In this document: positions 42,734-60,228 of the stretch, in pieces
Numbering within the stretch: the stretch's first letter is position 1
Layout: the number at the start of each line of letters is the position of its first letter
Source of the DNA: Candidatus Latescibacterota bacterium
GTDB taxonomy: Bacteria; JAAXHH01
Direction of reading: 5' to 3'
NCBI GenBank assembly: GCA_022822725.1
Contig: JAJEAN010000007.1
Span: 2,057,045-2,121,044 of the forward strand
Length of the DNA stretch: 64,000 nucleotides
Made by a program: the position numbers and the translations under genes
Notes under the pieces: model-generated
Seen by the model: the letters and a program-made list of their open reading frames with translations, nothing else
What the model was told of the DNA's origin: nothing
Database searches by the model: none

Positions 42734-42826
42734 CGCGAGGTTCAATATTCAGCCGCTGAAATGGTGAGGGCTGGACAAATGAGGACTGGAATGGCGAGTT
42801 CTGGTTATATTCAGTGAGGAGGAATG

Positions 42827-44161
42827 ATGCGTTTCTTATTGCACCTGGTCGGAGTCGGTCTGCTCGTTACCTCGGCATACGGAAGCAGCGCACAGGAGGT
42901 TACGTTTATGCGCGACGGTTTTGGTCACGTAGAAAGAACCCACCAGAAATACGCGGTTGATGGGGCTGGCACGCTGACCGTGGATGCCGACTTCGGCTCC
43001 GTAGGGGTCGAAAGCTGGTCCAGCGATGAAGTAGACGTCGAGATTGAAAAACGGCGGACGGGTATCAGCGAAGACAGCGCTCGCGACGCCTTCGACGACG
43101 TTGCCGTGGATATCTCTCAACGGGAGAACGACGTCGACATCCGAATCGACCGGAAAAGCCGTTTCGGGTCGGACAGGATGTCGGTGGATATACGGGTCAG
43201 GGTTCCGGAATCGTACAGCCTGGACCTCAAGACCTCGGGCGGCGATATCGATGTCGGAGACCTGCGGGGGGACGTGCATGCCCGTACGTCGGGCGGCGAT
43301 GTCAACGTGGGCAACGTAACGGCTGCGATGATCCGGGTTCACACGTCAGGAGGCGATGTGAACGTCAAGGGGGGCGCGAGTGAGACGAAGGTGTCCACCT
43401 CCGGCGGGGATATCGAGATCCAGGACGCCAGGGGCGCGGTGGAAGCGACCACCTCGGGCGGTGACGTCACGATCGGCGATGCGGCCGGCGAGGTGTCGGC
43501 CAAGACCTCGGGCGGCGACATCAGGATCGGCAGTACAGACGGCGAGGTGACGGTGAGGACCTCCGGAGGCGATATCGAAATCGATCAGGCCGGGGGAAAC
43601 ACGGAGGCGGTCACCTCGGGCGGCGACATCAGGATCGGCCATACCACGGGAGAAGTGAAGGCGAAGACGTCGGGCGGCGATATCACGATCGGACGCGCCA
43701 ATGGCGAGGTGGACGTGCATACCTCGGGGGGCGACGTCACCATCGACAGCGCCGAAGGGAGTCTGAAGGCGGGCACTTCGGGCGGTGACATTACGATCGG
43801 CAATGCGACGGGCGGCGGCGTGACGGCGAAAACCTCGGGCGGCGACATCGAAGCCCGTTTCAGGGCGGCCGTAAGCGCACTGGAGGAAGACTGGTTGCTG
43901 CAATCGTCCGGGGGAGAACTGGCCATCCACATTCCCGAGGACCTGCCGGCCACGCTCGATGCGGAGATCCGTCTTGAGCGGTCCTGGTCCGGACGCGAAG
44001 AGGAATATCGGATCGACTCGGATTTCGATCTGGACGAACAGAAAGAGGAAACTCGGGGCCGGCGGACGATCAGAGCCACCGGCGATATCAACGGCGGCGG
44101 CAATCGCATCCGGCTCATAACAAGTGGCGGCGATATTCAGATTCGCAAGGGGTCGTCCTGA
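42827..44161 (+). CDS. Secreted DUF4097 repeat protein (TSGGD type)
   Basis: This 444-residue protein has a signal peptide ending in YGSSAQE and a domain shared with the previous gene (GTLTVDADFGSVGVESWSSD). It then has thirteen T-S-GGD-I/V units of 17 residues, interrupted near the C-terminus by a nonrepetitive segment (ALEEDWLLQSSGGELAIHI). The pattern forms a long beta-solenoid with an Asp and Gly-Gly ladder on one face. GAGGAGG lies at 42816-42822, which favours the second of two adjacent ATGs (42827). The stop codon lies in a tandem repeat. Confidence 0.85.
   Translation: MRFLLHLVGVGLLVTSAYGSSAQEVTFMRDGFGHVERTHQKYAVDGAGTLTVDADFGSVGVESWSSDEVDVEIEKRRTGISEDSARDAFDDVAVDISQRENDVDIRIDRKSRFGSDRMSVDIRVRVPESYSLDLKTSGGDIDVGDLRGDVHARTSGGDVNVGNVTAAMIRVHTSGGDVNVKGGASETKVSTSGGDIEIQDARGAVEATTSGGDVTIGDAAGEVSAKTSGGDIRIGSTDGEVTVRTSGGDIEIDQAGGNTEAVTSGGDIRIGHTTGEVKAKTSGGDITIGRANGEVDVHTSGGDVTIDSAEGSLKAGTSGGDITIGNATGGGVTAKTSGGDIEARFRAAVSALEEDWLLQSSGGELAIHIPEDLPATLDAEIRLERSWSGREEEYRIDSDFDLDEQKEETRGRRTIRATGDINGGGNRIRLITSGGDIQIRKGSS
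43232..43855 (+). repeat. Coding 51-bp repeat ladder (TSGGD units)
   Basis: Twelve tandem units of 51 bp encode 17-residue beta-solenoid coils with an invariant TSGGD core. A thirteenth unit occurs alone near the C-terminus. The array is twice as long as the GGSI array of the upstream paralogue. Confidence 0.85.
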
Positions 44162-48983: not shown

Positions 48984-49053
48984 CTTCCGGCCCGTCCTGC
49001 CTCTTCCTCCCCGTCCTGCCCTTCCGGCCCGTCCTAGCCTTCCTGTCCCGTGG
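48984..49053. repeat. Stop-anchored 17-19 bp repeat, four copies
   Basis: CTTCCGGCCCGTCCTGC-like units occur at 48984-49000, 49001-49019 and 49020-49038, and a partial unit runs to 49053. The third contains the complement of the TAG stop of the FAD oxidoreductase gene (49034-49036). It fills the gap to the convergent barrel gene. Confidence 0.82.
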
Positions 49054-50413
49054 AATCGACGAAGACCCGGTGTGCGCTGCGGTCCTTGCCGGCTTCCTGC
49101 GCATGCTGGTAGGACCGGTGCTCGGACGGCTTCCCGAGCGAGGTAAGGGACAGCATCTTCTCCGCCGTCTTCGTGGCTACGTAGGGCCGCCGGATGTCGG
49201 TCGGGTTGGCCTGGATGTGCTGCTTCCATGCGCCCAGGTCCGTCTTCGCCTGGATCAACCCCTTGATCATCCCCATGTCGTTCAGCATGGCCACGTCGTC
49301 CGCCGGGCCGAGGATGATGGCGCCGGTGATCGTGGAGCCGTCCCAGATCAGCTTGCGGTAGACCGGGCGGTTGGCGTTGACGACTTCGGTAACGTCGCCG
49401 TCGCCGGACCAGTCGCCGAAACTGGCGCACTGCAGCCCGCACACGTCCAGGATATTGATCAGCAGGCTGCCGGGGTATTCCACGTCCTGGCCGGCCATGT
49501 TCGCGCCGGCGATCCGGCCGTGGTCGACGGCGGTAGGCTGAATGGCGTGCACCGCCTGGCCGCCGGTGGACAGGTCCGGCCCCTCGGCCACGTCGCCCGC
49601 GGCGTATACGTTGGCGATATTGCTCTGGCATCGGTTGTTGACCAGGACGCCCTGGTTGGTCTCGATGCCCGATCCATCTAGAAAACCGATGTTGGCCTTG
49701 ATCCCCGTGGCGACGATGACCACGTCCGCGCGGGTGGACGACCCGTCGGAAAGTTGCAGGGTCTTCACGCCGTCGTGGCCGTGATCGATGGCCTGCACGC
49801 TCACGCCGGTGTGGACTTCGACGCCCTGGGACTCGAGCCAGGAGCCCACCAGTGAAGCGCCCTGGGCGTCCAGCATGCGTGGCAGCACCTGGTCTTCCAG
49901 TTCGATCACCTTCAGTCGGGCACCGCGCTTATGCATCGCGTTGAGAATGATGAACCCGATGAAACCGGCCCCGATGAAGGCCACCTCGGCATCGCTCCCC
50001 AGGGCGCTCACGGTCTTTTCCGCGTCCGCCACGGTCCAGAGATTGTGGACGCCGTCGCCGTCCGCGCCGGGAATGTTCAACTGCTGGGCGGACGAGCCCG
50101 TGGCGATCAGCAGGTTGTCGAAGGGCACCATGGACCCGTCGCTGAGCGTGAGCATGCTCGCGTGGGGATTCACCTCGGATACGCTGACCCCGAAGCGGGT
50201 CTTCACCCCCAGCTTTCCGAAGTAGTCGTCGTCTCCGGTATTTACCTGTTCGACCGGGATGTTACCCGAAATGTAGTAGGGCAGGGCCATGCGGGAATAG
50301 GCCGGCTCATCGGAGATCAGGGTGATGGACGCGTCCGCATCGAAACCGCGAATCGTTTCTATGGCATTCATCCCGCCCGGTCCGCCGCCAATAATCACGT
50401 GTTCTGTTGCCAT
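49034..50413 (-). CDS. FAD/NAD(P)-dependent oxidoreductase, AorC-like subunit
   Basis: This 459-residue pyridine nucleotide-disulfide oxidoreductase-fold protein has VIIGGGPGGMNAIETI for FAD, VAFIGAGFIGFI for NAD(P)H and NVYAAGDVAEGPD near the C-terminal half. The adjacent genes encode two aldehyde ferredoxin oxidoreductases and a 4 x [4Fe-4S] ferredoxin, so it is the likely NADH-linking subunit of an AorABC-type enzyme. It begins 32 bp after the second AOR gene, with AAGGAG upstream. Role by context; fold by sequence. Confidence 0.85.
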   Translation of the reverse strand: MATEHVIIGGGPGGMNAIETIRGFDADASITLISDEPAYSRMALPYYISGNIPVEQVNTGDDDYFGKLGVKTRFGVSVSEVNPHASMLTLSDGSMVPFDNLLIATGSSAQQLNIPGADGDGVHNLWTVADAEKTVSALGSDAEVAFIGAGFIGFIILNAMHKRGARLKVIELEDQVLPRMLDAQGASLVGSWLESQGVEVHTGVSVQAIDHGHDGVKTLQLSDGSSTRADVVIVATGIKANIGFLDGSGIETNQGVLVNNRCQSNIANVYAAGDVAEGPDLSTGGQAVHAIQPTAVDHGRIAGANMAGQDVEYPGSLLINILDVCGLQCASFGDWSGDGDVTEVVNANRPVYRKLIWDGSTITGAIILGPADDVAMLNDMGMIKGLIQAKTDLGAWKQHIQANPTDIRRPYVATKTAEKMLSLTSLGKPSEHRSYQHAQEAGKDRSAHRVFVDSTGQEG

Positions 50414-50445
50414 AATCCGCTCCTTCTAAAGGTGGTTTGGTTTCG

Positions 50446-52275
50446 TTACGCGAGACCCAGCTCCGCCAGTTTCTCCGTGGTGGGACGTCCGTCGGCCGTC
50501 CAGCCCCGGGCTGCGTAGTAGTCCGGCAGCATGGCGTCCAGGTCGACGGTCACCCCGGCGGAAGGCCCTTCCTTGTGGGCTTCTTCCATCAGTCTCTTCG
50601 GCAGCGTGTCATCGGCCGCGGTGAGGCCGGCCTTGAGATTCCACAACCGCTCGATGTTCCAGATCCGCTCGCCGATATGCACGAAGTCGTCCATGGTGTA
50701 ATCCACGCCGGTGGCCGCGGACAGCACCGGGATCAGGTCGTCCAGGGGCGCGCCGGTGGTGGTGAACATGCAGATGCCCGTGGCGTCGTGGGCCGTGGTC
50801 CGGTTCTGCTCCTCGGCCACCCAGACCGACTTGCCGTCGGTGCCGTGGGGATCGTATTCACCGCTGGTTTCGATGCCGGGCGTCCACGCCCTCAGGTGAC
50901 AGGCACCGCGGTTGCAGGTGGCATAGGCCACGCCCATGCCCTGGAACCCCCTGGGATCATAGGCGGGGAACTCCTGCCCCTTGACGCCCATGAAATACTC
51001 CGGATGCTCGAACTTCTCGGTCATCCGCTTTGAGCCTTCGGCCAGTTCGTCGCCGAAGCCTTCCCGGAATCCCGTGGCTTCCGTCATGGCGACCAGGGCC
51101 TTGCCGTCGCCGAAACGGAGCGCCATGCCCGTCTGCTCATCACTCAGCAGGCCCCGCTCGTACATCTCCATGGCCGTGGCCAGCGTGGCGCCCATGGAGA
51201 TGGGATCCATGCCCAGGTCGTTGCACAGGTAGTTGGCCATGACGATGGCGTCCATGTCGTCCACGCCGCAGTCGGCCCCCAGCGACCAGAGGTTCTCGTA
51301 CTCCGGTCCCTCCCCGGCGACCTTCCAGTTGCGGGGATGCATGTTGACCATGTACTTGTCGGCGTTGGGGGACACCTGCGTCACGCGGCCGCAGGCGATG
51401 TTGCAGGCGAAGCACGCCTTGTTGGCGATCAGCCAGTTCTCCTTGATGCTATCGCCGTTGATCGCCTCGGTGCCTTCGAACTGGCCGGCCGTGAAATTGC
51501 GCGTGGGCAGGCCGCCGTAGGTATTGACCAGATCTACCGTGGGCGCCGTGCCCAGCTCCGTGAGGCCCTGCCGGCCGGGGCTTTCCGCCAAGTGTTCGTG
51601 GTAGGCCCAGATGGCGGCCATGTAATCCCGGGGCCGTGCGATCCGCACGCCCTGGCTGCCGCGTGCGGCGATCGCCTTGAGGTTCTTGGAACCCATGACG
51701 GCGCCGACGCCGGAGCGTCCCGCGGCCCGGTGCTTGTCGTTGACGATGCACGCGAACCGCACCAGGTTCTCTCCCGCAGGTCCGATACCGGCCACCCGCA
51801 GTTCGGGCATGCCGGTCTCGTCGCGGATGGCGTCCTCGGTCTCCGAGACCACTTTGCCCCACACGCCGGCGGCGTCGCGGATCTCGACGCGGTCATCGTC
51901 AACCAGGAGATAGCAGGGACGGTCCGCCCGGCCTTCCACGACTACCATGTCGTAGCCGGCGAACTTGAGCTCCGGACCCCAGTGGCCGCCCGAATTGGAT
52001 GTCGTGATGGCGCCTGTGAGCGGACCCTTGGTCACCACCATGTAGCGTGCGCCGCAGGAGGCGTTGGTGCCCGTAAGCGGCCCGGTGGCAAGGATCAGTT
52101 TGTTTTCGGGACCGAGGGCGTCGGCCGAGGGATCCATCTCCTCGTAGAGGTACCGCGCGGCCAGTCCGCGGCCGCCGATGAACTCCTCGGCCCAGTCCAG
52201 CCTCAGGGGCTCTTTGGTCGCCTTGCCCCGCGTCAGGTCGACACGCAGAATATGGCCGGCCCACCCGTGTGCCAT
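50446..52275 (-). CDS. Tungsten-type aldehyde ferredoxin oxidoreductase, second catalytic subunit
   Basis: This 609-residue AOR-family protein oxidises aldehydes (or reduces acids) at a W-bis-pterin centre. The N-terminal domain (GWAGHILRVDLTRGKATKEP, LILATGPLTGTNA) and the [4Fe-4S] ligands ACFACNIACGRV plus the later Cys in HDATGICMFTTTG are all present. It is a close paralogue of the AOR 108 bp upstream, so the two probably arose by tandem duplication. The start at 52275 has GGAG eight bases upstream. Confidence 0.93.
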   Translation of the reverse strand: MAHGWAGHILRVDLTRGKATKEPLRLDWAEEFIGGRGLAARYLYEEMDPSADALGPENKLILATGPLTGTNASCGARYMVVTKGPLTGAITTSNSGGHWGPELKFAGYDMVVVEGRADRPCYLLVDDDRVEIRDAAGVWGKVVSETEDAIRDETGMPELRVAGIGPAGENLVRFACIVNDKHRAAGRSGVGAVMGSKNLKAIAARGSQGVRIARPRDYMAAIWAYHEHLAESPGRQGLTELGTAPTVDLVNTYGGLPTRNFTAGQFEGTEAINGDSIKENWLIANKACFACNIACGRVTQVSPNADKYMVNMHPRNWKVAGEGPEYENLWSLGADCGVDDMDAIVMANYLCNDLGMDPISMGATLATAMEMYERGLLSDEQTGMALRFGDGKALVAMTEATGFREGFGDELAEGSKRMTEKFEHPEYFMGVKGQEFPAYDPRGFQGMGVAYATCNRGACHLRAWTPGIETSGEYDPHGTDGKSVWVAEEQNRTTAHDATGICMFTTTGAPLDDLIPVLSAATGVDYTMDDFVHIGERIWNIERLWNLKAGLTAADDTLPKRLMEEAHKEGPSAGVTVDLDAMLPDYYAARGWTADGRPTTEKLAELGLA

Positions 52276-52383
52276 GAAGAAACTCCATTCCTCGGCTCAG
52301 GCCGGGTGATGCGGGACGGCGCTCCGGTCGCCTGCTCCGGACATGCCCCGTGGATCACCCTGGCTCAAGAGCCGGATCGGGCG

Positions 52384-54231
52384 CTACGCCAGTCCCAGCG
52401 ACGCCAGTTTCTCCTTGGTGGGTTCGCCTTCCGCGTTCCAGCCGCGGAGTTCGTAGTATTCCGGCAGCATCTCGCCGAGGCGGTTCACTTCGCCCTTGGT
52501 CGGACCGTCGGGGATCGGATCTTCCAGCAGCCGCTTGGGCAGCGTGTCGTCCTTGCCCGTGAAGCCCGCCCGCTGGTTCCACATGCGTTCGATGTTCCAG
52601 ACGCGCTCCCCGACTTCCAGCAGTTCGGGCACCGTGTAGGAGATGCCGGTCACCGCCTCGAGCTGGGGCTGTATCTCGTCCAGACCCACACCGAAGGTGA
52701 GAAACAGGCAGAGGCCGGACGCGTCCACGGTGCAGGTGGCGTCCTGGAAGATCTTGGTGATCTCCGCCTTGCCTTCCGTCACGGCCGGGTCCATCTTCTC
52801 CGGGATCCCCAGGATCTCGGGTGCGACCGTGTAGCTCTTCAGGTGGCAGGCGCCGCGGTTCGAGGTCGCGTAGCCCAGGCCCATGCCCTGGATCGCCCGT
52901 GCGTCGTAGGCCGGGAATTCCTGGCCGCGCACGCCCATGAAGAACTCGGGCCGGTCGAACTTGGCGGTCATGCGCTTGGAGCCTTCGGCCAGTTCATCGC
53001 CGAAGCCTTCGCGGTAGGCCGCCTTCTCCGTCATGGCGACGAGCGCTTCGCCGCTCCCGAAGTTCAGCTGCATGCCGGTCTGCTCATCCGTAACGGCGCC
53101 GCTTTCGTACAGTTCCATGGCCGCGGCCAGCGTCGCGCCGAATGAGATCGGATCCATGCCCAGTTCGTTGCACATGGCGTTCGCCTTGATGAGCGCGTCC
53201 AGGTCGTTGATGCCGCAGTCGGCGCCCATGGCCCAGGCGTTCTCGTATTCCGGCCCCTCGACCGCGATCTTCCAGTTGTGGGGGCGGGTGGTCACGGTGA
53301 ACTTGTCCTGCGCCTCGCCCGGCAGCTGCGATACCCTGCCGCAGGCGATCGTACAGCCGAAACAGGCCTTGTTGGCCACCAGCCGCGTATCGGCGAGGGT
53401 TTCCCCGCTGATGTTGTCCGCGCCTTCGAGCTGGGACACCTGGTGGTTGTTGGTCGGCAGCGCGCCGCTTTCGTTGATGATGTTGACCAGTACCGCGGTG
53501 CCGTAGGCGGCCAGACCCTCACCCGTTACCGGATGCTCGACCAGCTTGCTCTTCATCTCCCACATGGCCGACATAAACTTCTGCGGGTCGGCGATGGGTA
53601 CGCCCCCGGTGCCGCGTACGGCAATGGCCTTGAGGTTCTTCGAACCCATGACCGCGCCGACGCCGGATCGTCCGGCGGCCCGGTGCCGGTCATTGACTAT
53701 GGCGGCGAAACGCACGAGGTTCTCACCCGCCGGACCGATGCAGGTAACGACCGTATCGTGCTGTCCCGACTCTTCCCGCACGATGTCGTCCGTCTCCCAG
53801 ACCGTCTTGCCCCACAGGTGCTCGGCGGAACAGATGCGGACGTCGCCGTCGCAGATGGAGATGTAGGACGGAACCGGCGCCCGGCCTTCCACGATCAGCA
53901 TGTCGTAGCCGGCGAACTTCAGTTCCGGACCCCAGTGGCCGCCCGAATTGGACGTGGTGATGGCGTTCGTCAGCGCCCCCTTGGTGACCACCATGTAGCG
54001 AGAGCTCGTCGAGGCGTTCGTGCCGGTCATGGGACCGGTCGCGAAGATCATCTTGTTGTCCGGGCCCAGCGCATCTGCCGCCGGGTCCATCTCTTCATAG
54101 AGGTACCTGGCCGCGAGGCCGCGCCCGCCCACGAAGGATTCGGCCCATTCCATGTTGAGGGGCTCTTTCGAGATCCGACCGGTGGTCAGATCGACGCGCA
54201 ATATCGTGCCTGTCCATCCGCCGTTGCTCAT
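52384..54231 (-). CDS. Tungsten-type aldehyde ferredoxin oxidoreductase, first catalytic subunit (AorB-like)
   Basis: This 615-residue AOR-family enzyme has the complete cluster and cofactor motifs: CFGCTIACGRVSQ (three of the four [4Fe-4S] Cys), the fourth in VDASGLCLFLTF, and the pterin-binding region RAAGRSGVGAVMGSKNLKAI. Its start overlaps the ferredoxin stop by 4 bp (ATGA), indicating fixed stoichiometry with that electron-transfer subunit. With the downstream AOR and FAD genes, this mirrors the NAD-linked AorABC enzyme of Aromatoleum. Confidence 0.94.
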   Translation of the reverse strand: MSNGGWTGTILRVDLTTGRISKEPLNMEWAESFVGGRGLAARYLYEEMDPAADALGPDNKMIFATGPMTGTNASTSSRYMVVTKGALTNAITTSNSGGHWGPELKFAGYDMLIVEGRAPVPSYISICDGDVRICSAEHLWGKTVWETDDIVREESGQHDTVVTCIGPAGENLVRFAAIVNDRHRAAGRSGVGAVMGSKNLKAIAVRGTGGVPIADPQKFMSAMWEMKSKLVEHPVTGEGLAAYGTAVLVNIINESGALPTNNHQVSQLEGADNISGETLADTRLVANKACFGCTIACGRVSQLPGEAQDKFTVTTRPHNWKIAVEGPEYENAWAMGADCGINDLDALIKANAMCNELGMDPISFGATLAAAMELYESGAVTDEQTGMQLNFGSGEALVAMTEKAAYREGFGDELAEGSKRMTAKFDRPEFFMGVRGQEFPAYDARAIQGMGLGYATSNRGACHLKSYTVAPEILGIPEKMDPAVTEGKAEITKIFQDATCTVDASGLCLFLTFGVGLDEIQPQLEAVTGISYTVPELLEVGERVWNIERMWNQRAGFTGKDDTLPKRLLEDPIPDGPTKGEVNRLGEMLPEYYELRGWNAEGEPTKEKLASLGLA

Positions 54232-54719
54232 GCCGCGTTACCTCCCTCGATGGACTGCAGATAGGACTCGTTGACCTTCTCGGCCCAGCCGCCCAGCCAG
54301 TCGGCCGACTCGCTCTCGGTGTACTCGATGGCGCCCGTCGGACAGGCGACCGCGCAGGCCGGATTGCCGTCGCACAGGTCGCACTTGAAGGCCTTCTGCG
54401 TGTCGGGGTTGTAGAACACCGTGCCGAAGGGACATGCGATGGTGCACAACCCGCATCCCACACAGTTGGCATCGCCCACGACCTTGGCGCCGGTATCCGC
54501 GTCGATGCTGATGGCGTTCACGGGGCAGGCCGTCATGCACCAGGCTTCGTCGCACTGGAAACAGGTGTACGGCGCGTAACTGGCCTGCTCATCGAAAATG
54601 TTCACGCGGATCAGCGACCGGGATGGTTGAAACATGCCGGTCTGCACCCAGGAACATGCCAGTTCGCACTGCATGCACCCGGTACATTTTTCAGGGATTA
54701 TGCGTAGAGATTTAGCCAT
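54228..54719 (-). CDS. Four-cluster [4Fe-4S] ferredoxin, AorA-like subunit
   Basis: This 163-residue protein carries sixteen Cys in four groups: CTGCMQCELAC, CFQCDEAWCMTAC, CVGCGLCTIAC and CDLCDGNPACAVAC. They predict four [4Fe-4S] clusters in a HycB/DMSO-reductase-B-like fold. It is the electron-transfer partner of the AOR encoded directly downstream (4-bp overlap). The start at 54719 (MAKSLRII) has GGGAG upstream and is preferred to a Met seven codons earlier. Confidence 0.92.
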   Translation of the reverse strand: MAKSLRIIPEKCTGCMQCELACSWVQTGMFQPSRSLIRVNIFDEQASYAPYTCFQCDEAWCMTACPVNAISIDADTGAKVVGDANCVGCGLCTIACPFGTVFYNPDTQKAFKCDLCDGNPACAVACPTGAIEYTESESADWLGGWAEKVNESYLQSIEGGNAA

Positions 54720-55062
54720 GCCGACTCCCTTCTGTAACAATGAGCTGGTTTTGGAGGCGTTTCTTTCTTCGAGTCCTGAGCGAAGGCAGATAAAACGAGC
54801 ATGAAAGGCCGCTAACGTCCGGTTTCAGGGCCCGTCATCGCGAAGGACAACGATGTGTTACGTAAGGTGATTACCTAAATACTGCTGGGGTTAATTACCA
54901 GTATAACGACTAAATTCCGAATGGCAACAGTTAAATCTGCTGTTCTGCTGATTCTGCTGTTCTCCTGGAACGGTTCACGAAAGACAGGGCCTGGCCGGCC
55001 GATCGCCGGGTCTGGCCGGCGTGCCGACGCACCGGCCTGGCCGGCCGACAGGCTGGCTTGTC
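54720..55062. other. Intergenic region upstream of the AOR operon, with GC repeats
   Basis: No gene is visible in this 343-bp gap. It must contain the AOR operon promoter (minus strand). At 54988-55048 three degenerate copies of a (GG)CCTGGCCGGCC-type unit lie 15 bp from the 3' end of the GYD gene. An A+T-rich segment around 54860-54925 is the likely promoter zone, but I see no clear -35/-10 pair. Confidence 0.4.
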
Positions 55063-55383
55063 TCAGGCTCCAGGCAATCTGTATGTCACGCTCTTCCCTA
55101 CCGCCTCGTCGATCGTTTCCGGCGACAACAGGACCGTCGTGGATACTTCGAGTGCGCCCGCCGCGGCCACGTTCAGGGCGATCGCGGTCGCGGTCGCCTC
55201 GTCGGGAACCTCGGCGATGAGAATGAGATCGTCGTCCCCCATGGCGTAATAGAATCCTTCCAGGCTGCCGCCCATGCCTTCGATCGTCTGCGACAGGGCC
55301 GCGCGCCTTCCGGTTCCACCTTCCCTGAGCAGGCCCTGCAGGCCCGTTTGCGTGTACTTGGTACGGAACATGTACTTCGCCAT
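55063..55383 (-). CDS. GYD-domain protein
   Basis: This 106-residue protein begins MAKYMFRTKYTQTGLQGLL, followed by GMGGSLEGFYYAMGDDDLI and AEVPDEATATAIAL, the typical pattern of the GYD domain, a dimeric ferredoxin-like fold of unknown function. The start at 55383 has GGAGG seven bases upstream. It is a stand-alone small protein between the AOR operon and a methyltransferase. Confidence 0.87.
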   Translation of the reverse strand: MAKYMFRTKYTQTGLQGLLREGGTGRRAALSQTIEGMGGSLEGFYYAMGDDDLILIAEVPDEATATAIALNVAAAGALEVSTTVLLSPETIDEAVGKSVTYRLPGA

Positions 55384-55713
55384 GTCACTTCCTCCCACGG
55401 AAGTTGTGTATGGTCCGCGCCGCGCCTCCCTGCCGCACGGACACCGGTTGGTTGCTCAAACGTTTGTATCTGTTAACAAGGCACGATCGCGCGGCGGCTG
55501 TCAAGGCTATTTTTCGTTCCCGAGTGCAGGTCGTAACCCCCGGTTTTCAATGGCGACCCGCATGGACGAACACCATTTCCGGTACACTTGCGGCAACGGT
55601 GAATTCCTGCCTATATTAAGGATGACCGATCGATGGATACCAGATCGACGGCAGTCCCGCTTTGCCCGGGTGTCCGCACCGGTAAAAACGACTTCTTGCA
55701 CAGGCCAACAGTC
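55384..55713. other. Divergent intergenic region
   Basis: The 330-bp region between the minus-strand GYD gene and the plus-strand methyltransferase has no convincing gene. A longer in-frame start for the methyltransferase (55633) exists, but the extension does not look like the family. It probably holds both promoters. Confidence 0.35.
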
Positions 55714-56535
55714 ATGACCGATACAACAGCGCGCCGGACCGCGGAAATGCACGATGCCAACCGCCGGTCCTGGGATCATGTTTCCGGCTGGTGGGCCGAA
55801 ATGCGGGACCGCGACGGGCTGTGGCGCCGCTGCCCGGAGGAACCCGAGCTGGGATTCGCGGGCGGCGCCTTCGAGTTGATCGGCTCCTTTGCCGGCGAAA
55901 TGGAAGGGAAGAAGGTCGTCGTCATCGGCAGCGGGGACAATCACGCGGCCTTCGCCCTGGCGGGGATGAAGGCCCGGGTCACTTCCATCGACATTTCCGA
56001 GCGCCAACTGGAAACGGCTTCTGCACGGGCGGATAAGCTGGGCCTGGAAATCGTATTCGCGCGGGCGGACGCGACGGATCTCGAAGCGATCACGGACCGT
56101 TCGTTCGACCTGGTCTGCTCGACCAACGGGTTCTTCGTCTGGATCGCGGATCTTCGCGGTGTTTTCCGCGAAGTCCGTCGTGTCTTGAAACCGGGAGGAT
56201 ACTACGTCTTCTACGATGTGCATCCCTTCCAGCGGCCCTGGAAAGACGGGACCCGGACGGTCGAAGTCGACAAGCCTTACTGGCAGACCGGTCCTTTTAT
56301 AGACGAGAAAGAGGGTACGTTTGAATTCAACTGGACGATCGGAGACATTTTGAACACGGCGGCCGATGCAGGGCTTGTCCTTCGGCGCATCCTGGAACGC
56401 CCGGCCGGGGATTCGAGTTTCTGGGAAGGAACTTCATACCTTCCGGGGAAGAACGGGGGGTTGCTCGATTGGAAAGAGAACCCCAGGGCCGCCCTGCCTG
56501 TCTGGCTCTCGGCGGCTCTCCAGAGACCGGTATAA
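55714..56535 (+). CDS. Class I SAM-dependent methyltransferase
   Basis: This 273-residue protein begins MTDTTARRTAEMHDANRRSW. Motif I is VVVIGSGDNHAAFALAG, unusual in having SGDN rather than the common GCGxG, with motif II TSIDISERQLETA and FDLVCSTNGFFVW. The same signature (GSGDNLVAFALAG) occurs in the methyltransferase at 58127, so the two are paralogues. The substrate is unknown. I place the start at 55714 because the family motif MHDANRRSW follows closely. Confidence 0.83.
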   Translation: MTDTTARRTAEMHDANRRSWDHVSGWWAEMRDRDGLWRRCPEEPELGFAGGAFELIGSFAGEMEGKKVVVIGSGDNHAAFALAGMKARVTSIDISERQLETASARADKLGLEIVFARADATDLEAITDRSFDLVCSTNGFFVWIADLRGVFREVRRVLKPGGYYVFYDVHPFQRPWKDGTRTVEVDKPYWQTGPFIDEKEGTFEFNWTIGDILNTAADAGLVLRRILERPAGDSSFWEGTSYLPGKNGGLLDWKENPRAALPVWLSAALQRPV

Positions 56536-58126: not shown

Positions 58127-59017
58127 TCACGGCTTGCACGGTTTCTTCCGACCCACCAGCAACAGGTTCGCCGGCATTTTCTCCATCGGCGCGCCGCCCT
58201 CCCATTCCTGATTCCCGTCACCGTACTCCTCCATGGCCACGAGCTCGCATCCCCCTTCAAGCAGCGCGCGGGTCATGTCCGAAACCGTCCAGTGAAATTC
58301 GTAGCTGGGGAGCGGTCCGGTACCCTCGGGCAGTTCCTCCGACCGGTCATAGATAAAGGGACCGTGGTCGAAGTAATGGAATTCCTGCTTCAGGGGTCCG
58401 GGGCGATGCTTCCATAGCCGGCGGAACGGATGGTACTCGTTGACCATGAACAGGCCGCCTGGCTTGAGCATCCGAATGCCCTCCCCGTAGTAGCACTTCA
58501 GGTCGGAAACCCATACGGCGACATGCCCGCCCGTATACACGATGTCGAACCCGGCGGCCGAGAGTCCGTCGGGACCGTCGGGACCGCCCGGACTGCCGGG
58601 ATCGTTCGAACCGCCTGATCCACCTGGACCGCCCGATCCACTCGGAACGCCCGGATTGCCCGGACTTGACAGGTAGCCCAGATCGGTTACATCTGCTTGG
58701 AGAAACCGGATCTCGAGACCGAGCACCTCCGCTCTTCCGGCAGCGATATCCAGTTGGGTCTGTGAGATATCCACGGAAGTGACCCGGGCCCCGGCGCCGG
58801 CCAGGGCGAAGGCGACCAGGTTGTCTCCGCTGCCCAGCACGCAGGCGGACCGACCGGACACGTCTCCCAGGTATTTAAGCTCGACGTCGTCCAGCGCGAG
58901 ATGGATGTTATCCGGGATGCTTCGCCAGTCCACCCTGGCGTCGATCTCCGCCTGCCAACCGGCGGAAGCGGCGTCCCAGCCCCTGCGGTTCGCCTCGTGC
59001 ATGGGATGCCTGCTCAT
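58127..59017 (-). CDS. Class I SAM methyltransferase with collagen-like Gly/Pro insert
   Basis: This 296-residue protein is paralogous to the methyltransferase at 55714: it shares MHEANRRGWDAA, motif I VLGSGDNLVAFALAGAG and TSVDISQTQLDIA. An insert of about 35 residues (PGNPGVPSGSGGPGG, then SPGGPDGPDG) lies between motif III (DVTDLGYLS) and FDIVYTGGHVAVW, exactly where the paralogue has none. The insert is encoded by a 9-bp DNA repeat. It is predicted to be a flexible surface loop; whether it affects activity is unknown. Confidence 0.82.
   Translation of the reverse strand: MSRHPMHEANRRGWDAASAGWQAEIDARVDWRSIPDNIHLALDDVELKYLGDVSGRSACVLGSGDNLVAFALAGAGARVTSVDISQTQLDIAAGRAEVLGLEIRFLQADVTDLGYLSSPGNPGVPSGSGGPGGSGGSNDPGSPGGPDGPDGLSAAGFDIVYTGGHVAVWVSDLKCYYGEGIRMLKPGGLFMVNEYHPFRRLWKHRPGPLKQEFHYFDHGPFIYDRSEELPEGTGPLPSYEFHWTVSDMTRALLEGGCELVAMEEYGDGNQEWEGGAPMEKMPANLLLVGRKKPCKP
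58558..58663. repeat. In-frame 9-bp repeat coding a collagen-like loop
   Basis: About twelve 9-bp units such as GTCGGGACC, GCCCGGACT and GCCTGATCC run in tandem inside the minus-strand methyltransferase and encode Gly-Pro/Ser-rich triplets. Nine bases equal three codons, so copy-number change would not shift the frame. Confidence 0.85.
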
Positions 59018-59049: not shown

Positions 59050-59134
59050 CCCTCCTGGCTCAGGTCCACCCGGCTCCGGTTATCCCGGCTCAGGTTATCC
59101 TGGACCAGGTCCACCCGGTTCAGGCCCTCCTGGC
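59050..59134. repeat. Stop-anchored 15-bp repeat, about six copies
   Basis: Fifteen-base units (on the plus strand, forms of CCTGGCTCAGGTCCA and CCCGGCTCAGGTTAT) fill the spacer between the two minus-strand methyltransferases. The last one contains the complement of the TGA stop of the gene ending at 59120. On the plus strand it would encode PPGSG repeats, but no gene is supported there. Confidence 0.85.
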
Positions 59135-59902
59135 CACCCACACCTGCTCGTTTCCATGGCGGAACGGACCGCGGCTAAAGTCCCCGTATAGCGCCTCGAC
59201 TTCGTAACCGCAGCGTTCGAGGAGGTGCTGCATTTCGAAACGGTGCACATAGCGCAGATTCAACGGGGTGGTGGTCTTCGAAAGCACTCGGCCTTCGTCG
59301 TCCACTTCTTCGAAGAACCGGTGCTCCTCCAGCGTCTGCTCCAGCGGGTCGTACCGTCGCGTATCCGACACCATGACGCGGCGTCCAGTCTCGGGATGGG
59401 TGAACGATCCCAGGTGATTGAGGGTGCCCCTGGGCGGTCTCATGTAGGCGGCGATCAGTTCGATACTGGGATCGAATACGTTGAAAACCAGCCGGCCCCC
59501 GTCCGTCAGATGCTCGCGGATGCATGCCAGGGCACGGCGCTGGTCGTCAGCGGTCATCAAGTGCAGGAACGCGCGGTATGGTATGATCGCCAGCGGGAAG
59601 CGCCGTTCCAGGCTGAACGTCCGCATATCGCCTTCGACGATCTGCATACGCCGCCGCGTTTTGTCCGGCAATGCCGCGATCTTGCGACGGGCCACCTCCA
59701 GCATCGCCGGGGCCCTGTCCAAACCAACGATGGACACGCCCGATACGGCGATCGGGATCATGATCCGCCCGGTTCCGCACGCGATCTCCAGCACGGGGCC
59801 ATCCGCCTTTTTGGCCTCCTCCACGTAGAACGCCTCGTCACCGTCGAGTCCCGTCGAGTAACTGTCGTACAGGCCGGCGTCCGTCCTGTCGTATTCCGAC
59901 AC
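59120..59902 (-). CDS. Class I SAM-dependent methyltransferase
   Basis: This protein of about 260 residues has motif I VLEIACGTGRIMIPIAV, motif II LDRAPAMLEVARRK and LAIIPYRAFLHLMTADDQR, then DGGRLVFNVFDPS. The C-terminal beta-barrel-like part (RYVHRFEMQHLLERCGYEV) matches the Methyltransf_25 group. An AAGGAGG lies directly against the ATG at 59908, too close, but the GTG two codons later (59902) has ideal 6-bp spacing, so I prefer it. The 3' end lies in a 15-bp repeat. Confidence 0.83.
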   Translation of the reverse strand: MSEYDRTDAGLYDSYSTGLDGDEAFYVEEAKKADGPVLEIACGTGRIMIPIAVSGVSIVGLDRAPAMLEVARRKIAALPDKTRRRMQIVEGDMRTFSLERRFPLAIIPYRAFLHLMTADDQRRALACIREHLTDGGRLVFNVFDPSIELIAAYMRPPRGTLNHLGSFTHPETGRRVMVSDTRRYDPLEQTLEEHRFFEEVDDEGRVLSKTTTPLNLRYVHRFEMQHLLERCGYEVEALYGDFSRGPFRHGNEQVWVARRA

Positions 59903-60228
59903 GTCCATCCTCCTTGAGAAACAGCTTTACTTTCGCCAACGCGTAGACTTGTGCGACGTCATCGCAACAGTACACCGGGCTGGATGCAGGATTGCCACGA
60001 CCCGCGTCAGGCACGACATACGTCGGGCGTTCGATCTCTACATAGCTGTATTATATCGGTTGATTTCGCTATTGTCCCGATTTTACTTCCATGCTTGTCC
60101 GGATCCCACGATGTCTCTTGAAATGTAAAGTGCCGCGGTCCAGACGGCGGGGTTCGAAGTCGAAAGCACGGTTTCACCATGTAACGATCGAATCGGTACG
60201 CCAGTCACACCACGATCGAGGATCTTCT
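59903..60228. other. Divergent intergenic region
   Basis: This stretch of roughly 320 bp separates a minus-strand methyltransferase from a plus-strand dehydrogenase. A frame extends upstream of the dehydrogenase to 60091, but the extension has no family match. An A+T-rich segment near 60040-60090 is the probable promoter zone. No gene or strong hairpin is seen. Confidence 0.35.

Follow-up and report, generated by a model that had tools for sequence, protein, structure and literature searches.

Only one class III tungsten oxidoreductase (WOR) has been characterised (PMC13328260). This is the AorABC enzyme of Aromatoleum aromaticum EbN1 (AORAa; structure 8c0z), in which one kind of catalytic subunit, AorB (WorL), is carried on a nanowire of the polyferredoxin AorA (WorS), with AorC (WorN) as the third subunit. 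Here, we describe a locus from a marine Latescibacterota bacterium in which an AorABC-type operon holds two aldehyde oxidoreductase (AOR) genes, AOR1 and AOR2, between AorA and AorC. It lies in a stretch of 64,000 nucleotides (contig JAJEAN010000007.1, positions 2,057,045 to 2,121,044), termed the window, whose coordinates are used throughout.

Several related enzymes provide points of comparison. The AOR of Moorella thermoacetica (AORMt) has an operon structure described as identical to that of AORAa, with three subunits (PMC6365974), but its AorA is reported to lack the C-terminal extension (PMC12096430) that is present here, and it has one catalytic gene. The bifurcating class IV enzyme WOR1 (9mqx) shares WorL and the polyferredoxin WorS with the present locus. 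Class IV enzymes add a WorABC module (PMC13328260, PMC12096430), whereas the operon described here encodes a single subunit for flavin adenine dinucleotide (FAD) and nicotinamide adenine dinucleotide (NAD). The class I AOR of Pyrococcus furiosus (PfAOR; 1aor) has neither AorA nor AorC, and forms a homodimer bridged via E332 and H383.

An AorABC-type operon with two catalytic genes

A first-pass annotation of this DNA had recognised the gene order ferredoxin (16 Cys), AOR, AOR, FAD/NAD oxidoreductase, matched it to the Aromatoleum enzyme, and described both AORs as full-length with complete motifs. These observations are borne out. All four open reading frames (ORFs) are present with the bounds it gave, the subunits and the A-B-C order are those of AORAa, and both AORs contain complete AFOR_N and AFOR_C domains in Pfam (E 1e-81 to 1e-146) together with all checked residues. 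Pfam also identifies 4Fe-4S families in AorA and Pyr_redox_2 in AorC. The best PDB matches are 8c0z_C for AorA (6.7e-56), 8c0z_E for AorC (5.8e-77) and 8c0z_A for AOR2 (1.2e-194). AOR1 matches 9mqx_D best (1.3e-222) and 8c0z_A second (2.1e-218), but the 9mqx alignments are gapped at the long loop of AOR1 and AOR2.

Like AORAa, the locus has the tungsten cofactor (W-co), Fe-S and catalytic residues, an AorA with a C-terminal extension, a long AorB loop, and the FAD/NAD residues of AorC (R41, M42, R179 and Q294 of 8c0z are conserved). Unlike AORAa, it has two AorB genes, whose products are about 50-57% identical to AORAa-type subunits and branch apart from these, in a sub-clade that also contains Planctomycetota and metagenome-assembled genomes (MAGs) classed as Myxococcota. 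Several features of class III are present: the WorL domains, cofactor ligands and catalytic Glu/His, a WorS with four predicted clusters and a WorN in the operon, and a WorL that groups with catalytic subunits associated with AorA and AorC. A single catalytic gene per operon, a feature of AORAa and not part of the class definition, is replaced by two adjacent WorL genes. PfAOR shares the fold (template-modelling (TM) score 0.94 for the AOR2 model), the W-co site and the benzoate-type pocket of AOR1. However, the positions of its dimer-iron residues E332 and H383 are occupied by K and V in AOR1 and by M and V in AOR2 (hand-counted on the alignment), and thus a PfAOR-type homodimer is unlikely. 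Neither the iron bridge nor the lack of a small subunit, both characteristic of class I homodimers, is found here.

An old pair of paralogues

AOR1 and AOR2 are adjacent in 15 of the 16 genomes sampled from the phylum (G000-G014 among G000-G015), which rules out an assembly artefact. In the sixteenth, G015, the operon is AorA-AOR1-AorC, and the 229 nt between AOR1 and AorC hold no recognisable trace of AOR2. A recent tandem duplication was also ruled out, as AOR1 and AOR2 are 61% identical to one another compared with 78-99% to their own orthologues within the phylum, and as each lineage has Planctomycetota members.

The phylogeny of both AORs against AorB, which the first-pass annotation had proposed as a check, shows one clade inside the AorABC group that is sister to the proteobacterial AORAa clade (support 98/88). 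AOR1 and AOR2 are sister lineages within it, and do not fall in distant AOR clades with unrelated partners. In a tree with more Planctomycetota, the AOR2 lineage forms one clade of Latescibacterota and Planctomycetota (100/100), while the AOR1 lineage, with weaker support (84/67), contains Latescibacterota, Planctomycetota and MAGs labelled Myxococcota or Proteobacteria. Because both lineages span phyla, the split would either be older than the sampled Latescibacterota or reflect the movement of one lineage between phyla. Quick trees of AorA and AorC place the Latescibacterota operon nearest to a Planctomycetota operon with AOR2 only (L079) and to operons with AOR1 only (G041, L080). The duplicated catalytic subunit of the first-pass annotation is therefore upheld in that there are two paralogues, but the pair is old and differs between lineages in which members are retained, rather than stemming from a simple AorB duplication within this genome.

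Both copies are under purifying selection. The ratio of nonsynonymous to synonymous substitution rates between the window and G003, at low synonymous divergence, is 0.098 for AOR1 and 0.073 for AOR2. Together with the residues retained, these values rule out AOR2 as a decaying copy.

Among the best 80 genome loci, every AorABC-type operon except the Latescibacterota tandem has one catalytic gene. Three further phyla, sampled at 392, 379 and 398 genomes with at most three candidates scored per genome, yielded no neighbouring AOR genes at E <= 1e-120; tandems may still occur elsewhere. Searching the main text of the 2026 WOR classification turned up no operon with paired WorL genes, and none of the papers searched links Latescibacter to aldehyde ferredoxin oxidoreductase. 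In a MAG labelled Proteobacteria, L198 (G1218:C416) is an AorA-AOR1-AorC operon whose AOR1 is 71% identical to that of the window, closer than any other match from outside the Latescibacterota; transfer or a mislabelled bin is possible. The genome that holds the window also has a third AOR-family gene (G000:C4:63289-65016; L041:7164-9173), 29% identical to AOR1, in which Thr aligns with the catalytic His464 position; similar distant matches occur in most genomes of the genus.

A single AorA and AorC alongside two catalytic genes

AorA keeps residues P9, F42, W60 and A95 of its 8c0z counterpart, has 16 Cys, and ends in an extension of some 25 residues that contains a WA.K motif. By analogy with AORAa, this extension may be of the kind that polymerises AorABC; a low-confidence AlphaFold model of AorA places a helix at 139-158, with a predicted local distance difference test (pLDDT) score of 41. 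Each of 11 genomes of the genus has one close AorA, 98-100% identical, and the next match in these genomes is 35-36% identical and lies inside a frame of about 550-600 residues.

Planctomycetota genomes offer other arrangements of the same genes. In G041, G105 and G174, an AorA-AOR1-AorC operon is accompanied by an AOR2 gene on another contig, without adjoining AorA or AorC, and each genome has only one close AorA. In G041, this AOR2 gene spans two contigs sharing a 127-base end. No shared neighbour of these orphan AOR2 genes was seen by eye in the ORF lists, a reading made without a family search. G039 and G359, in which no AOR1 was found, carry AorA-AOR2-AorC, and thus, judging from gene content, AOR2 can probably serve as the sole catalytic subunit of an AorABC-type complex.

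A further indication comes from the stretch that separates the FS0 cysteines from the catalytic EYE. Members of the AorABC clade have 26-30 residues here, compared with 14-15 in the nearest relatives that lack AorA; most of the remaining relatives, whether or not they have a polyferredoxin subunit, have 17-19. The stretch is 30 residues long in AOR1, 29 in AOR2 and 29-30 in the orphan AOR2 proteins. Since it follows the FS0 cysteines, it is plausible that it faces AorA.

The orphan genes raise the question of whether AOR2 is a free-standing, ferredoxin-linked (class I) enzyme, made from the same transcript but bound to neither AorA nor AorC. We regard this as improbable, as even the orphans keep the AorABC-type loop, AOR2 alone stands between AorA and AorC in G039 and G359, and the AOR2 lineage lies within the AorABC clade. 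Instead, the single AorA, the orphan AOR2 genes in genomes with one AorA, and the AorABC-type loop in both proteins favour a reading in which AOR1 and AOR2 would both use the one AorA and the one AorC. The same three observations strengthen the earlier suggestion of a mixed oligomer, although mixing itself is an extrapolation from them.

An arrangement in which two homogeneous complexes, AorA-AOR1-AorC and AorA-AOR2-AorC, draw on AorA and AorC only as a shared pool has to be weighed against such mixing. Each AOR lineage provides the sole catalytic gene of an AorABC operon somewhere (AOR1 in G015 and G040, AOR2 in G039 and G359), and so each can presumably work alone with AorA and AorC. However, the AORAa wire is built by AorA-AorA contacts (PMC10413684), with no obvious sorting of AorB isoforms, and only one close AorA is present; segregation is thus unlikely. 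Mixing of AOR1 and AOR2 on one filament would be the likelier outcome, because filaments form through AorA in AORAa and because neither AorA nor AorC has a second copy that could keep the isoforms apart.

Catalytic residues and substrate pocket

Residue numbering and roles follow those of AORAa (8c0z; PMC10413684). R75, N92, R181, E331, D361, Y443, H464 and D504 are kept in both AOR1 and AOR2, as are the FS0 cysteines C295, C298, C302 and C509. The structure model of AOR2 (pLDDT 84.8) gives TM scores of 0.95/0.94 to 8c0z_A and 0.94 to 1aor and 9mqx.

In AORAa, Y468, F511 and F514 hold benzoate (PMC10413684). AOR1 retains this pocket as Tyr467, Phe510 and Phe513, with the canonical loop TVAPEILGIPEK. 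In AOR2, by contrast with AORAa, Trp464 replaces Y468, Thr507 replaces F514, and the loop is three residues shorter. W at 468, a shortened loop (TPxxE...) and F511 are shared by every AOR2-lineage protein that was read, whether from Latescibacterota or from five Planctomycetota. Position 514 is more variable, being Thr or Ala in the family of the window, Phe in G014 and in the Planctomycetota L079, L081 and L189, and replaced in the other two Planctomycetota, L191 and L193. As the pocket change is conserved and lineage-specific, the substrate range of AOR2 is likely to differ from that of AOR1. This agrees with the first-pass proposal of different aldehyde substrates, although which substrate AOR2 takes is not predictable from the pocket.

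Altered pocket residues might also be expected of an inactive paralogue with a purely structural or regulatory role. This is very improbable for AOR2, in which every checked cofactor, Fe-S and catalytic residue is kept, purifying selection is as strong as on AOR1, and which in G039 and G359 is the operon's only gene for a catalytic subunit.

A proposed enzyme with two heads for one wire

Taken together, the locus probably encodes an AorABC-type (class III) tungsten enzyme for NAD-linked aldehyde oxidation, in which two catalytic subunits would be interchangeable and share one AorA and one AorC. Tungsten would be the active-site metal. Tungstate transport and pterin genes, which the first-pass annotation had listed among its checks, are represented in the genome by a TupA homologue (L177:1414-2259; matching the tungstate-binding protein 3lr1, E 4.7e-83) and by MoaA, encoded elsewhere.

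The mechanism would follow that of AORAa. Either AOR1 or AOR2 would dock on the same polyferredoxin AorA, and an aldehyde hydrate would be oxidised at the tungsten centre of the docked subunit by catalysis of the E331/H464 type proposed for AORAa (PMC10413684). Electrons would then pass from FS0 to AorA, along the AorA clusters of the filament and on to the flavin of AorC, where FAD would reduce NAD+. AOR1 would have the broad, aromatic-accepting pocket, and AOR2 would take a different set of aldehydes.

A more tentative proposal, for which we put the chances at somewhat below even, is that one conducting AorA filament carries both AOR1 and AOR2 as interchangeable heads that differ in substrate range. 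Electrons from several aldehydes might then be pooled to one NAD site, or the oxidation of an aldehyde at one head might be coupled through the wire to the reduction of an acid at the other.

The shared use of AorA is open to one objection from gene content, in that orphan AOR2 genes might instead indicate an AOR2 that functions by itself. The substrate difference is read from three positions and one loop. Finally, the Aromatoleum maturation genes aorD and aorE could not be made out among the ORFs listed next to the operon, although no search was aimed at them.

Operon anatomy and neighbouring genes

The operon and its genes lie on the minus strand (Table 1). AorA and AOR1 overlap by 4 bases (ATGA, 54231-54228), and AOR2 and AorC are separated by 32 nt. 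Besides the promoter-like site upstream of AorA, a second and weaker match (54697-54724) lies over the AorA start. As 2 matches were found on the operon strand against 1.3 expected, the promoter evidence is weak. A consensus scan of this strand gave no promoter-like match in the operon interior downstream of AorA.

Table 1. Features of the AorABC-type operon with two catalytic genes and its surroundings (window coordinates)
Feature	Position	Strand	Description
AorA / WorS	54228..54719	-	polyferredoxin, 163 residues, 16 Cys, four predicted [4Fe-4S] clusters, C-terminal extension
AOR1 / AorB1 / WorL	52384..54231	-	615 residues, predicted catalytic subunit with tungsten bis-pterin (W-bis-MPT), canonical pocket
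AOR1-AOR2 spacer	52276..52383	-	108 nt, without promoter- or terminator-like site
AOR2 / AorB2 / WorL	50446..52275	-	609 residues, second catalytic subunit, variant pocket
AOR2 Trp464 codon	50884..50886	-	residue that marks the AOR2 lineage; position calculated from the start of the ORF
AorC / WorN	49034..50413	-	459 residues, FAD/NAD(H) oxidoreductase
Sigma-70-like promoter	54900..54927	-	TTGCCA N16 TATACT, upstream of AorA; consensus match only

A GYD-domain gene (55063-55383, minus strand) lies directly upstream of the operon. It is also found there in G001, G003, G007 and G009, with 90-95% identity, and was not seen beside the operon in the other genera read. Three methyltransferase-like ORFs, judged by eye, are clustered beside the operon (55633-56535, 58127-59017 and 59120-59908). 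Further away, on the plus strand, 42824-44161 encodes a 445-residue protein with many TSGGDI/V-type repeats, which we take to resemble a DUF4097-type beta-helical protein.

Variant heads in other lineages

Orphan AorB-like genes without adjoining AorA or AorC are also found in G1211 (L202), G1212 (L203) and G916 (L199), labelled Rhodobacterales, Alphaproteobacteria and, for G916, belonging to the phylum of Aromatoleum. Each of these genomes also holds a canonical AorA-AorB-AorC operon. All three orphans keep a loop of 26-28 residues, and the two whose pockets were read, L202 and L203, have Ser at 468. They group with the Asp468 enzymes L090, L091 and L129 (99/99), apart from AOR2. Since these Pseudomonadota-side orphans form a separate lineage, there may have been two or more origins of an alternative AorB in genomes with one canonical AorABC set.

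A deleted loop (CHLKHD or similar) together with Asp468 is seen in the AorABC-type catalytic subunits L090, L091, L100, L102 and L129. In L091, AorA stops immediately behind the ferredoxin fold, and in L100 and L129 it has an unusual tail; these complexes may therefore not form filaments.

What is unusual in the locus described here is a second catalytic subunit that diverged long ago and has a distinct pocket conserved in its lineage, and a recurring gene content of one wire and two heads. The authors of the 8c0z structure raised the sharing of electrons along the nanowire for identical subunits. If two catalytic isoforms do occupy one wire, electron sharing between different active sites along an enzymatic nanowire would become directly testable. 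The Trp468, Asp468 and Ser468 lineages also provide natural head variants for engineering the substrate range of an enzyme that is valued for acid reduction.

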